Positions 30,249 to 36,133 of a DNA stretch of 36,236 nucleotides are shown here, piece by piece (positions within the stretch are counted from its first letter, which is position 1; each line of letters opens with the position of its first letter). The stretch covers positions 1 through 36,236 of the forward strand of contig JAKFWI010000068.1 in assembly GCA_021731965.1 (NCBI GenBank), written 5' to 3'. The notes under the pieces are model-generated. The model made no database searches. It was not told the origin of the DNA and saw only the letters and a list, made by a program, of their open reading frames with translations. Origin of the DNA: Hyphomonadaceae bacterium. GTDB taxonomy: Bacteria > Pseudomonadota > Alphaproteobacteria > Caulobacterales > Aquidulcibacteraceae. A program made the translations under genes and the position numbers.

Positions 30249-30881
30249 CTAATTATCACGGGCCTCATCTTCCAGCATCAGCCTTTGCGTGACCCCGTCT
30301 CGCTGGCGCAGGATGCAATCATGCTCCGCGCCAAGCGATTGCGCCAAGGCCGCGGCGCTCTGTGCCGGCCCGCCCGCGCAAGTGCCAAGCAGGACGTCCC
30401 CGCGCTCAATATCCAGCTTGCTGACCGTCAGGTTCAGAACCTCAAAGCCGATGCGTGATGCCGCGGCACCGTCTGGGCTCGCCACATTCACAGCCCGCGC
30501 GCGTACGTGCAAAGAGCCAAGAGAGAGTTGGAGCGGGCTGGCCGTATCGGCCGCTGCAGCCGGCAGCGCAGTGTGGGGTGCCGGCACAAGCCTTTGCAAA
30601 GGGGCGCTTGGCAAAGCCAGCGGCACGGGGCTATCGACTGGCACCATGGGAGGCAAGGGCGCTATCGGCAGCCTAGCAACACGGGGCGTGGACTGAGACG
30701 CTGTCGCCGGTGGGTGTTTCCACGTCAGCGACAGCCCCCACAGACCGCCGCCCGTGATCAATGCTGAGCCAGCGCCGATCGCGAAGAGCCAAGCGGTCAC
30801 GAATTTCGGGTTGCGCTCAACAGGCGCGGGAAAGCTGGCATTGCGCGTCGCATGGTCGGGCCGAATTCTGCCGGCGCGCAA
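30249..30881 (-). CDS. Single-TM protein with proline-rich linker and C-terminal domain of unknown function
   Basis: TTG at 30881 proposed start: MRAGRIRPDHATRNASFPAPVERNPKFVTAWLFAIGAGSALITGGGLWGLSLTW...PIAPLPPMVPVDSPVPLALPSAPLQRLVPAPH... Start uncertain; the longer ORF track entry runs antisense to the next gene. Confidence 0.55.
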   Translation of the reverse strand: MRAGRIRPDHATRNASFPAPVERNPKFVTAWLFAIGAGSALITGGGLWGLSLTWKHPPATASQSTPRVARLPIAPLPPMVPVDSPVPLALPSAPLQRLVPAPHTALPAAAADTASPLQLSLGSLHVRARAVNVASPDGAAASRIGFEVLNLTVSKLDIERGDVLLGTCAGGPAQSAAALAQSLGAEHDCILRQRDGVTQRLMLEDEARDN

Positions 30882-31040
30882 AACGCGCCGTGCGGCCCCG
30901 CGCTCCTGCGCGGTATCAAAGGAAGGGGCATTTTCCAAAGCCAGCGCCCGATAACCATCATATCGCAATCGGTAATGACCGCGACCCCAAGGCAGTCTAT
31001 CATGGGTGCGGTGTCGGGGTCCAATTCTATGGAGGGGCGC

Positions 31041-32234
31041 ATGTCCACAATACATAAGCACGTATGGGCCATGGCGAGCACGGCGCTGTTGAGCTTGCTT
31101 GGAATTGGCGCAGCCAGCGCCGCCGAGCCGCAGCGCCAATTTGGGGTGATCGAGATCGGGGGATCGGGCGTAAAGGCCACGATAGTGGAATTTGTCACCC
31201 CCGCGCGCGATAGCACTGCCTTTGGCCTTGATCTCAAAGTTGTGCGGCGCTTTCCCATCAAGAATGTGGACCCGGCCTTTGCTGAGAACGTGCCCAAGGT
31301 TGCTGCGGAAATCGACGCGCTCATTGCCGATCTCAAGGCGCGCTATGATTTGGATCCGCTGCATATCTACATCACGGCCGCTAGTGGCTTGAACATGGAC
31401 GGTAAGGGCACGGCGCTGAGGCTCGCGGTGGATGCAGCGGCAGCGGGCAGGGCCGGGGCTTTGTCTTTCGTTTCGCCCGCCGAACAAGCCCAATTTGGCT
31501 TTAACGGCGTGGTGAATTGCCAGCGTTTGGCGCATCGGCGCCAGCAGACCCTGTTCATCGACGTTGGCAGTTCGGAAATCGTGGCCGCCGCGGCAGGCCC
31601 GCGCACCGGTGCCTGCGGCAGCGAGAGCATCTCGGCGCTCACCTTCGGTTTTGGCGTCAAGACCGGCGCGCGCTTGCTCGGTCAGCAGGGTGGCGTGCCT
31701 GATGCGCCCCCGCCCGCGGACACGGTCGATGCGATGGTCAAACACGCATTAGAAGCCTCCCCGTCGCGCGCCTTGAGCCGCGGGCGCGTCTATTGGGGCG
31801 GTGGGATCGTCTGGACGGTGGCCACCATGCTGCATCCTGAGGATGGCAGCGGCTATGTGCGCTTGCAACCGGACGATTTCGCGCGGATCGGCGCGCAATT
31901 GCGGGCCGATGCCTCGTGTTTGACAGATCCAGTGATGGCCCTACGGGCCGATCCGGAATGTGGGATTGTCGACGTCAATTTTTCCACGGTGCGCGACGTT
32001 GATCAACGCGTGCGGGTGGCGGCTGATCACCGCGAGATCGTCACCAGCATTTATACGCGCGAGCAGATGAAGACCGGGATCGACATCCTGCTGGCGCTCA
32101 CCAAACAATTGGAGCTGACCAACAGCGAAGTATTTTTCGCGCGGCCATCCTTAAATGCCTGGACCATGGGCTATCTCTTGGCTCAGGAAAGCGGCCTGGA
32201 CCTCGGGCATCCCATCAGCCCGGCGCAGCCATGA
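31041..32234 (+). CDS. Exported Ppx/GppA-like (ASKHA-fold) protein
   Basis: Signal peptide MSTIHKHVWAMASTALLSLLGIGAASAA; phosphate-1-like VIEIGGSGVKATIVEF; phosphate-2-like TLFIDVGSSEIVAAAAG; adenosine-like VYWGGGIVWTVATML. Confidence 0.7.
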   Translation: MSTIHKHVWAMASTALLSLLGIGAASAAEPQRQFGVIEIGGSGVKATIVEFVTPARDSTAFGLDLKVVRRFPIKNVDPAFAENVPKVAAEIDALIADLKARYDLDPLHIYITAASGLNMDGKGTALRLAVDAAAAGRAGALSFVSPAEQAQFGFNGVVNCQRLAHRRQQTLFIDVGSSEIVAAAAGPRTGACGSESISALTFGFGVKTGARLLGQQGGVPDAPPPADTVDAMVKHALEASPSRALSRGRVYWGGGIVWTVATMLHPEDGSGYVRLQPDDFARIGAQLRADASCLTDPVMALRADPECGIVDVNFSTVRDVDQRVRVAADHREIVTSIYTREQMKTGIDILLALTKQLELTNSEVFFARPSLNAWTMGYLLAQESGLDLGHPISPAQP

Positions 32235-32261: not shown

Positions 32262-33182
32262 ATGGCCACGGATCTTGACCTGGCGGCGCAGCCGCGTCCG
32301 GGAGACTTGCGCGCGCGGATGCGCGGTGTGGTGGAGTCCGATTGGTTCACGCGCGCCATCCTTGGCGTGATTTTGCTCAATGCGCTGCTGCTTGGCCTTG
32401 ATGCGGATGTGCGCGGGCACGCCGATTTCGGCGCGCTGATCAGCGTGTTCGATTCGCTCGTGACCGGCGTTTTTGTGCTGGAGCTTGGCCTCAAGCTGTT
32501 TGTCTTTCGGGAGAAATTTTTCCGCTCGGGCTGGAATTTCTTTGATCTCGCAGTCGTGCTGATTTCCCTGGTGCCAGACGCGGGTGCCTTTCTCGTGCTG
32601 CGAGCCTTGCGGGTGTTTCGGGTCTTTCGGGTGTTTTCCGTATTGCCGGCGCTGCGGCGGGTTATCGATGCGCTGCTGAAGGCCATCCCTGGCATGGGTG
32701 CCATCCTGGCCGTGCTCATCGTGCTGTTTTACGTGATGGCGGTGATGGCCACGACGTTGTTTTCCAGCGATACACGCGCGCCGATGCAGGAAATGTTTGG
32801 CTCGGTGTCGGCTTCGGCTTTCACCTTGTTTCAGATCATGACGCTGGATGGCTGGAGCTCAGAGGTGGTGCGCGTGGTCATGTCCCGCCACCCATGGGCA
32901 TGGGCGTTTTTCATTCCCTTCATCGTCATCACCAGCTTTGCAGTGCTCAATTTGTTCATCGCCGTGATCGTGCAATCCCTGCAAGAAGAACACGAAGAGC
33001 ACCTCAAGGCCGTGGCTGCCGAAGAAGCGGCGGAGCGCGCGGCGCTGGAAGGACCCAGCGAGACCGTGCCGCTTGATCCCGACCAAGAGCGCGGGGCGCT
33101 TTTGGCGCATGTCCAGGCGCTACGTGCCGAAATGGCCCAGCTGAGCCAGGCCTTGCGCGAATCCAGTCTGGCCCGCCGCTAG
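32262..33182 (+). CDS. Voltage-gated ion channel, NaChBac/BacNaV-like
   Basis: Six TM helices; S4 LRALRVFRVFRVFSVL with arginines every third residue; pore FTLFQIMTLDGWSSEVV; S6 FIPFIVITSFAVLNLFIAVIVQSLQEEHEEH; coiled-coil tail. Confidence 0.92.
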   Translation: MATDLDLAAQPRPGDLRARMRGVVESDWFTRAILGVILLNALLLGLDADVRGHADFGALISVFDSLVTGVFVLELGLKLFVFREKFFRSGWNFFDLAVVLISLVPDAGAFLVLRALRVFRVFRVFSVLPALRRVIDALLKAIPGMGAILAVLIVLFYVMAVMATTLFSSDTRAPMQEMFGSVSASAFTLFQIMTLDGWSSEVVRVVMSRHPWAWAFFIPFIVITSFAVLNLFIAVIVQSLQEEHEEHLKAVAAEEAAERAALEGPSETVPLDPDQERGALLAHVQALRAEMAQLSQALRESSLARR

Positions 33183-33299
33183 AGCGGATCCCGATTTGAC
33201 CTATCTCAGGTCAAATCGGGTGAATCCGCTCTACACTCAGTGATTAGAGCCGTTTTCGTCCGAAAACCGCGTCACACTTTTCGGGAACGGGTCTAGCCG
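33181..33299. repeat. RIME-like intergenic palindromic element
   Basis: agagcggatcccgatttgacc-tatctca-ggtcaaatcgggtgaatccgctct is a 21-bp inverted repeat with one 3-nt bulge. It is followed by gccgttttcgtccgaaaaccgcgtcacacttttcgggaacgggtctag. Confidence 0.7.
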
Positions 33300-33301
33300 G
33301 G

Positions 33302-35206
33302 CTAGGCCCGCGCCGCACCGAGCTGGCGGCCCAAGGCCGCGCAGGCCGCTTCCACAATGCCTTCGGCATCCAGCTTGGCGGTGGAATACATCACTTCGGG
33401 CTTATCGTGATCCTGGAAGATATCCGGCAGCATGAGCGTGCGGATTTTCAAGCCGCGATCCAGCAGGCCGTCAGCAGCCAGGAAATGCAGCACGAAGGCC
33501 CCAAATCCGCCCATCGAGCCTTCTTCGATCGTCAGCACCACTTCGTGCTCCCGCGCCAGGCGCCGGATCAAATCCTCGTCGAGTGGCTTGGCAAAGCGCG
33601 CATCCGCCAGCGTGGTGGACAGGCCCATGGCGGCCAAGCGATCCGCCGCTTTGTAGCATTCGCCGAGGCGCGCGCCAAAATTGATCAGTGCCACCGTGGT
33701 GCCTTCGCGCAGAATGCGACCTTTGCCGATTTCCAGCGGCAAAATCACGTCCGGGATGGCCACGCCGAGGGCCTCACCGCGCGGATACCGCACGGCCGAT
33801 GGCCGGTCATCGATGGCGGCGCAGGTGGCGACCATGCGCGCCAAATCCGCTTCATCGCCCGCGGCCATCACCACAAAGCCGGGCAATGCCCCCAGATAGC
33901 CGACATCGAAGGAGCCGGCATGAGTCGGGCCATCAGCGCCCACCAGCCCGGCCCGATCGATCGCGAAGCGCACCGGAAGGCCTTGGATGGCCACATCATG
34001 CACCACCTGGTCATAGCCACGCTGCAAAAAAGTGGAATAAATTGCCGCAAATGGCTTCATACCATCGGCAGCTAGGCCGGCCGCGAAGGTCACGGCGTGT
34101 TGTTCGGCGATGCCGACATCAAAACTCCGCTCCGGGAAGCGCTTGGCGAAGATATCGATGCTCGTGCCGGAGGGCATGGCCGCGGTGATGCCGACGATTT
34201 TATCGTCTTTCTCCGCCAGCTTGACCAAGGTCTCGCCGAACACCTTTTGATAGGCGGGCGCGCCCGGCTTGCTCTTGGCCTGTTCGCCGGTGACGACGTT
34301 GAATTTGGTGACGCCGTGATACTTATCCGCGGCCGCCTCAGCCGGGGCATAACCCTTGCCCTTTTGCGTCTTGATATGAACGAGCACGGGCTCATTCATT
34401 TCTTTGGCATTGCGCAAAACCGGCAACAGCGTCGCCAGATCATGCCCATCAACCGGGCCGACATAATAAAAGCCCAGCTCCTCGAAAAAGGTGCCGCCAG
34501 TCACCATGCCGCGGGCATATTCTTCGGCCTTCTTGGCGGCTTCGCGCATAGGATCGGGAAGGGCCCCGGCCACTTTTTTGCCGATCTTGCGCAGCGCCTG
34601 ATAGGCACCGCCAGACACCAAACGGGCCAGATAATTGCTCATGCCCCCCACGGGCGGGGCGATCGACATTTCGTTGTCATTGAGGATGACGATCAGGCGC
34701 TTGGTGGTTTCCGCGGCATTGTTCATCGCCTCATAGGCCATGCCGGCGGACATCGAACCGTCGCCGATCACGGCGATGACGTGGTTGTTGCGCCCCTGGA
34801 GGTCGCGGCCAACGGCAAAGCCAACGCCGGCGGAAATCGAGGTGGCGGCGTGCGCCGCCCCGAACGGATCATAGCGGCTCTCGGCGCGCTTGGTGAAACC
34901 AGAGAGGCCGCCCCCTTGGCGCAAAGTGCGGATGCGATCGCGGCGCTCCGTCAGGATCTTGTGGGGGTAAGCCTGATGCCCGACATCCCAGATCACGATA
35001 TCGTCAGGGGTGTTAAATACGGTGTGCAGCGCCACCGTCAATTCCACCACGGCCAGCCCCGAGCCCAAATGCCCGCCAGTTACGCTGACGGCATCGATCA
35101 TCTCTGAACGAAGCTCATCGGAGAGCTGACGCAGCTTGGATTCCTCCAAAGCGCGCAGATCCGCTGGGTTTTTCACCGTATCGAGCAGCGGGGTGGCAAC
35201 AGTCAT
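33302..35206 (-). CDS. dxs: 1-deoxy-D-xylulose-5-phosphate synthase
   Basis: [67 protein letters not shown]...[44 protein letters not shown]. Confidence 0.98.
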
Positions 35207-35248: not shown

Positions 35249-36133
35249 TTAGCTGCCTGCGAGCACGAAATCGACAGCTTCTCTCAGGAGTCTAGCCTTC
35301 GGCCCGAATATTGCCAAATGGCGTTGCGCTTGAGCCGCAAGTACCAGCATCCGCGCGCGCGCACCCTCTTCGCCAAACAAGGTGACGTAATTCACTTTTG
35401 GTCGTTGCGGGCGCCCGCGTTCTGGCCGGCTGAGCTCATCTTCCATGCCGTCGCGATCCATCAAATCGTCGGCGAGTTGGAAGGCCAGGCCCAGATCATG
35501 GCCAAAGCGGTTGAGGGATTGGCGCGCGTCTTCGCTCGCGGCCCCGGCCAGCGCCCCCGCCTCCAACGCAAAGCAGATCAGCGAGCCGGTTTTCAGCCGG
35601 TTCATCCGCGCCACCGCCGCGCTGTCTTCGCCGATTTCCGGGCCCATCATGTCCAGCATCTGGCCGGCGGCGAGGCCCATGGGGCCGCAGGCCTTGGCCA
35701 GCAAGGTCGTCAGCAAACAGCGCATTTGCGGATCGGGGTGGGTGTTGATATCGGCCAGGATTTCGAAGGCGAAAGCCAGCAACGCATCGCCAGCCAGCAG
35801 AGCCGTCGGTTCATCGAATTGGCGGTGCACGCTGGGCTGGCCGCGCCGGTGATCATCATCATCCATCAGCGGCAAATCATCGTGGATCAGCGAATAGGTG
35901 TGGACACATTCCACCGCCGTGGCCACGCGCAGCAAGGTGGTCTCGTCGGCATCGAACAAATGCCCCGCTTCCAGGCACAAAAATGGCCGGACACGGCGCC
36001 CTCCGGCCAAAGCGGCGTAGCGCATGGCGCTCAATAGGCGCTGTTCGGGCCCGCTGCAGCGCGGCAGCAAGGCATCGAGCGCCACCGTGATACGGTCCGC
36101 GGTTTCGCGAAGGCGTTGTTCAATATGCATCAA
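35249..36133 (-). CDS. ispA: Polyprenyl (farnesyl/geranylgeranyl-type) diphosphate synthase
   Basis: AGGRRVRPFLCLEAG; first Asp-rich motif SLIHDDLPLMDDDDHRRGQPSVHRQFDEPTALLAGDALLAFAFEIL; second FQLADDLMD. Confidence 0.93.
   Translation of the reverse strand: MMHIEQRLRETADRITVALDALLPRCSGPEQRLLSAMRYAALAGGRRVRPFLCLEAGHLFDADETTLLRVATAVECVHTYSLIHDDLPLMDDDDHRRGQPSVHRQFDEPTALLAGDALLAFAFEILADINTHPDPQMRCLLTTLLAKACGPMGLAAGQMLDMMGPEIGEDSAAVARMNRLKTGSLICFALEAGALAGAASEDARQSLNRFGHDLGLAFQLADDLMDRDGMEDELSRPERGRPQRPKVNYVTLFGEEGARARMLVLAAQAQRHLAIFGPKARLLREAVDFVLAGS

Follow-up and report, generated by a model that had tools for sequence, protein, structure and literature searches.

A NavAb-like bacterial voltage-gated channel carries a native TLDGW filter predicted to admit Ca2+

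The one prokaryotic Ca2+ channel identified so far, according to published descriptions, is CavMr, a channel of the AnclNav group with the filter TLEGWVD (PMC7041947, PMC12919392). The glycine at filter position 4 (Gly4) is required for its Ca2+ selectivity and confers the same selectivity on NavPp in the mutant NavPp-D4G (PMC7041947). This Gly4 filter keeps out Na+ and K+ in both CavMr and NavPp-Mr; the CavMr mutants G4S and G4D turn K+/Cs+-permeable, and Ca2+ selectivity also needs Val6 (PMC7041947). Once placed in NavAb, the CavMr filter gave no current (PMC7041947). In NavAb, the single mutation S178G raises Li+ permeability at a PCa/PNa below 0.05, and the double mutant S178G-M181A reaches a PCa/PNa of 0.47 (PMC12919392). 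An aspartate at position 3 (Asp3) is found in NsvBa (TLDSWGSG), which is nonselective and Ca2+-permeable; D186E restores its Na+ selectivity, and its filter carries the nonselectivity along when moved to NaChBac (PMC4225499). A published rule assigns Ca2+ selectivity to one-domain channels in which a Gly follows the high-field-strength acid, be it Glu or Asp (PMC10120453). Gly4 and a polar or acidic position 7 have been stated to be absent from canonical BacNaVs (PMC7041947, PMC12919392). Our search of the open full-text literature, with subscription papers outside its reach, returned no ion-channel paper containing TLDGW or TMDGW, and electrophysiology on a NavAb-like channel with a native Gly4 was not found in the literature.

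Here we report a channel gene in a window of 36,236 nucleotides, the whole stretch of DNA that was analyzed. The gene, its frame open throughout, and the parts of its product are arranged as follows.

32262-33182, + strand: voltage-gated cation channel gene, NavAb-like BacNaV, 306 residues (ATG start; end includes the stop codon)
32340-32570, + strand: voltage sensor S1-S3, residues 27-103, with conserved N40, E74 and D95 (invariant alignment columns; model helices)
32583-32642, + strand: S4, residues 108-127, with gating R114, R117, R120 and R123 (invariant in 20 relatives; model helix)
32805-32840, + strand: pore helix P1, residues 182-193 (model helix)
32841-32861, + strand: selectivity filter T194-L195-D196-G197-W198-S199-S200 (sequence; alignment to 229 homologues)
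32862-32864, + strand: Glu201, the first P2 residue (alignments; P2 starts at 201 in the model)
32862-32888, + strand: pore helix P2, residues 201-209 (model)
32892-32996, + strand: S6 and neck, residues 211-245 (alignment of relatives; model)
33078-33176, + strand: C-terminal amphipathic helix, residues 273-305 (model helix)

The protein matches the Pfam family Ion_trans (142 bits, cut-off 25), as does no other in the 2.55 Mb genome. Against PDB sequences, phmmer aligned NavAb and NavMs over the whole channel at E-values of 1e-57 to 1e-62, and Cav channels of the T and P/Q types also came up, their matches summed over several domains. An AlphaFold2 monomer model (pLDDT 87) displays S1-S6, P1, the filter loop 194-200, P2 and the C-terminal helix, the last of which is presumed by analogy to form a four-helix coiled coil. 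The nearest solved chains to this model are those of NavAb and CavAb, at a global TM-score of 0.41 and an rmsd above 12 Å; the low score presumably reflects a misplacement of the voltage sensor relative to the pore in the monomer model, and the fold identity of the channel therefore rests on E-value and sequence. The Ion_trans domain, six transmembrane helices, P1-filter-P2 loop and regularly spaced S4 arginines, together with the PDB relatives and the tree placement described below, bear out the BacNaV identity proposed in an earlier sequence-only reading, and confirm a real gene for a NavAb-type bacterial voltage-gated ion channel.

Sequence and alignment reveal that Asp196 and Gly197 occupy positions 3 and 4 of the filter, where the usual residues are Glu and Ser. 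The sequence-only reading had correctly recognized the T-L-D-G-W-S-S filter, the exchange of Glu for Asp at the high-field-strength position and the following Gly, as in Cav domains I and III; its interval of 32815-32860 covers the end of P1 and the filter but misses the last filter base. The string is no product of chance, as the flanking F-Q-x-M-T...W residues are invariant in 20 relatives, the frame is open and PDB relatives align along the entire channel; recurrence of the filter state in independent genomes excludes an assembly error. Three points had escaped that reading: published work identifies Gly4 as what determines Ca2+ selectivity in CavMr, a native bacterial channel; TLDGW is no peculiarity of this protein, and xDGW and xEGW are the norm in its order; and the filter change is accompanied by an acid, Glu201, where P2 begins. 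In the alignments, Glu201 lines up with Asp7 in filters of the TLEDWTD type, an Asp7 that CavMr (TLEGWVD) has as well, and with Gly in the NavAb sequence TLESWSMG.

Compared with NavAb and NavMs (TLESWSM), the channel shares the fold, S4 arginines, F-Q-x-M-T...W pore motif, C-terminal helix and tree region, but has Asp3 for Glu, Gly4 for Ser and Ser7-Glu8 for Met7-Gly8. With CavMr (PMC7041947) it has in common Gly4 behind the high-field-strength acid and an acid at the P2 start, whereas it carries Asp3 instead of Glu, Ser6 instead of Val6 and one extra residue before the acid. It contains no cysteine and therefore has no counterpart of the disulfide-bearing L6 loop reported for CavMr, and it falls in the NavAb-like rather than the AnclNav region of the tree. 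The engineered channels CavAb and CaChBac (TLDDWSD/TLDDWAD) likewise combine Asp3 with a BacNaV backbone and more than one acidic ring, but they possess Asp4 and Asp7 where this natural channel has Gly4 and Ser7-Glu8. NsvBa (PMC4225499) is also a native BacNaV with Asp3, but it is of Bacillus origin and differs in Ser4, a Gly at position 6 and the lack of a P2 acid. CatSper3 and CatSper4 (TVDGWTD and TQDGWVD; PMC7041947) share the D-G-W core and an acid three residues past Gly4; these belong to a eukaryotic heterotetramer of distant sequence, and their acid is at position 7 rather than 8.

Phylogenetic analysis was performed on 123 channels after removal of the filter columns, with NavAb, NavMs and NaChBac as references (full length checked against PDB) and with TLEDWTD-type channels representing the AnclNav group in place of CavMr's own sequence. 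The window channel lies among NavAb-like channels, inside a clade of 41 rows (SH-aLRT 98), and adjoins TGDGW channels of its own family (support 95); channels that fit the published AnclNav type by their TLEDWTD and TFEDWTD filters are placed outside, together with NaChBac. A second tree of 63 rows agrees, placing the channel with the TGDGW channels (99/91) in an inner clade (100/98) of a 55-row NavAb-like clade (100/99). Thus, although the channel resembles the AnclNav/CavMr group in Gly4 and a polar or acidic position 7 (Gly197, Ser200 at position 7, Glu201 at position 8), it does not group with TLEDWTD-type channels. On this sequence-based placement, it is filed as NavAb-like by phylogeny and not by motif, its filter being TLDGW instead of TLESW, and the NavAb-like group is wider than TLESW. 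A single clade of all Gly4 channels was rejected (AU p 7e-6), and position 4 underwent at least 15 changes to or from Gly on the tree, counts that do not tell gain from loss. The idea raised in the sequence-only reading that TLDGW might form one clade did not hold either (AU p = 0.006). The DGW of the window channel and the TLDGWSGE of sister genus g5 may have had separate origins or a single one (AU p 0.14).

The filter is uncommon in the class at large and ordinary in the order. A search of 385 genomes with the pattern F-Q-x-M-T-x-[DE]-x-W yielded 86 filters, comprising 70 TLESW, 12 TLEGW, 3 TLDGW and 1 TMDGW. Among the best 80 relatives from a search of genome contigs, about seven-eighths had TLESW and the remainder mostly TLEGW. 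Within the order of the window genome (398 genomes), Gly4 is the usual state (TMDGW, TLDGW, TGDGW, TLEGW): nearly all of the filters listed for the large family f2 read TMDGW, family f5 has TLEGW, and family f4 has TLEGW or TLESW according to genus, the two kinds being close sisters in the tree. We infer that this order is Caulobacterales and that f4 is Maricaulaceae. The window's own family, f1, bears TLDGW and TGDGW, and QFDGW in remoter copies; the latter form a further branch (L150, L154, L155, L158-L160) whose filters, QFDGWG(D/E), no longer have the conserved Thr-Leu ahead of the acid. The nearest relatives (L005, L007 and L009; genus g8 of family f1) have TGDGW, hence a Gly at position 2 as well. 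In NavAb, the position 2 mutants L176G and L176Q have been studied for divalent block (PMC10349818), and by analogy the three TGDGW channels may show such a block. In three genomes of genus g93, the filters of tandem TLESW channels are exactly 911 bases apart (G283:C71:47495 and 48406; G453:C29:30688 and 31599; G376:C53:7428 and 8339). No relative was found on viral contigs.

We then looked in 229 distinct aligned homologues for an acid anywhere from position 6 to position 8 of the filter, and found one in 76 of the 80 Gly4 channels against 0 of the 114 Glu3-Ser4 channels. The acid is mostly a Glu or Asp as the first residue of P2, directly after the filter in TLEGWPD and after one extra residue in TLDGWSSE; in NavAb, positions 7-8 are Met-Gly. 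All branches of the best tree provide 15 phylogenetically independent comparisons; Gly4 and the acid change jointly in 14-15 of them and oppositely in none. A sign test on the 15 independent pairs gives about 1e-4 (calculated by hand), many of those branches being weakly supported; the well-supported branches alone provide 5 pairs, too few to reach significance. For a coupling of Asp3 with Gly4, the tree offers too few supported pairs to uphold it. At three loci (L218, G859:C135; L219, G838:C22; L220, G938:C391), tandem channel genes differ in their filters, with TTEGWP(T/S) lacking the P2 acid beside TMEGWPD or TSEGWPD carrying it. Three of the only four acid-less Gly4 channels sit in these pairs, an arrangement that suggests heteromeric channels.

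The neighbouring DNA gives no clue to the function of the channel. An ORF of 460 residues on the same strand (30852-32234, +) ends 27 bases upstream and contains a stretch resembling a signal peptide close to an internal Met; neither Pfam nor NCBIfam gave a match for it, and related channels had no homologue of it beside them. Directly 3' of the channel gene is the palindrome CCGATTTGACCTATCTCAGGTCAAATCGG (33191-33219), the core of which occurs in about 23 copies in the genome as a dispersed intergenic repeat. Further downstream, dxs (33302-35206, -) and a polyprenyl synthase gene (35249-36133, -) are convergent with the channel gene. A dxs gene is also near TLESW BacNaV genes at the distant loci L060, L078, L094, L198, L203, L205 and L208, and none was found beside the nearest xDGW relatives. 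The genome holds a Na/Ca exchanger family protein and MotA/ExbB proteins, which are too common to indicate the ion of the channel.

Combining these data with the published mutants, we propose that the window channel is a canonical BacNaV equipped with a filter resembling those of CavMr and Cav domain I, most likely forming a Ca2+-permeable to Ca2+-preferring pore (probability about 0.6). The analysis establishes its protein identity, filter, phylogenetic place, recurrence and Gly4-acid coupling, and the tetramer, gating and ion preference are deduced. In this putative model, four identical subunits of the NavAb-like family would assemble into a voltage-gated channel, in which the S4 arginines shift on depolarization and the gate at S6 opens, as the conserved parts imply. 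The filter has been remodelled at three points, by Glu3 to Asp, by Ser4 to Gly, and by replacement of the Met-Gly of TLESWSMG with Ser-Glu, the last of which would create a second acidic ring where P2 begins. Gly4 would widen the entrance and leave the acidic ring exposed, and extra charge would come from the second one. As a result, the pore would no longer exclude Ca2+, and might range from weakly selective and Ca2+-permeable to Ca2+-preferring. The PCa/PNa of 0.47 in NavAb S178G-M181A indicates that a Gly4 channel without Met7, such as this one, may pass Ca2+. NaChBac also lacks Met7, having Ser there as in the window channel, yet it is Na+-selective. Taken together, the mutant data on Gly4, Asp3 and the missing Met7 and the published one-domain rule predict Ca2+ permeation; a Ca2+ preference, and with it Ca2+ selectivity, would go beyond them, because CavMr also needs Val6 and carries a disulfide loop that this channel lacks, and the CavMr filter in NavAb gave no current. 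The latter result, along with S178G altering the permeability to Li+ and not to Ca2+, means that the backbone matters. Altered Na+/Ca2+ selectivity, as put forward in the sequence-only reading, is accordingly the best prediction from published mutants, but its argument from Gly4 is weaker than implied there, since S178G alone keeps Ca2+ out of NavAb.

An alternative that we consider unlikely, though the stronger of two, is a nonselective cation channel like NsvBa, in which Asp3 and a flexible Gly pass Na+, K+ and Ca2+ without real preference. The nonselectivity of NsvBa travels with its filter into NaChBac, the K+/Cs+ permeability of CavMr G4S and G4D indicates that selectivity over monovalent ions is easily lost, and the C-terminal half of the window filter lacks the second Asp that CavAb has at position 7. 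However, CavMr's Gly4 filter keeps Na+ and K+ out of two channels, and the coupled acid suggests divalent handling rather than leak. An ordinary Na+-selective BacNaV, with its selectivity set by the backbone and its substitutions as tolerated drift, would fit the intact NavAb-like backbone, the Ca2+ exclusion of NavAb S178G and the close TLEGW/TLESW sisters of family f4, which hint that the change may be cheap, but it is quite improbable, as drift explains neither the repeated pairing of Gly4 with a P2 acid, nor the 15 changes at position 4 with one clade rejected, nor the prevalence of Gly4 across whole families, and Asp for Glu at position 3 admits other cations in NsvBa.

In summary, the window protein is a BacNaV, a known kind of channel, with a variant filter. 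The protein is not strange on its own, but the coupled change that recurs across canonical channels allows native sequences to be used for testing how Ca2+ selectivity arose. Gly4 and a polar or acidic position 7, reportedly absent from canonical BacNaVs, appear many times inside this group and are linked to each other. Dozens of unstudied natural relatives, including close TLEGW/TLESW pairs of the Maricaulis versus Glycocaulis type, offer a test of how a Na+ filter becomes one for Ca2+ and of what in the backbone permits this. Since the NavAb-CavMr swaps gave no current, native NavAb-like sequences with such a filter supply what this question needs. It is conceivable, if somewhat doubtful at present, that NavAb-like channels repeatedly became native Ca2+ channels through Gly4 and a P2 acid, with Asp3 optional, and that voltage-gated Ca2+ entry would be the rule among channel-bearing Caulobacterales.
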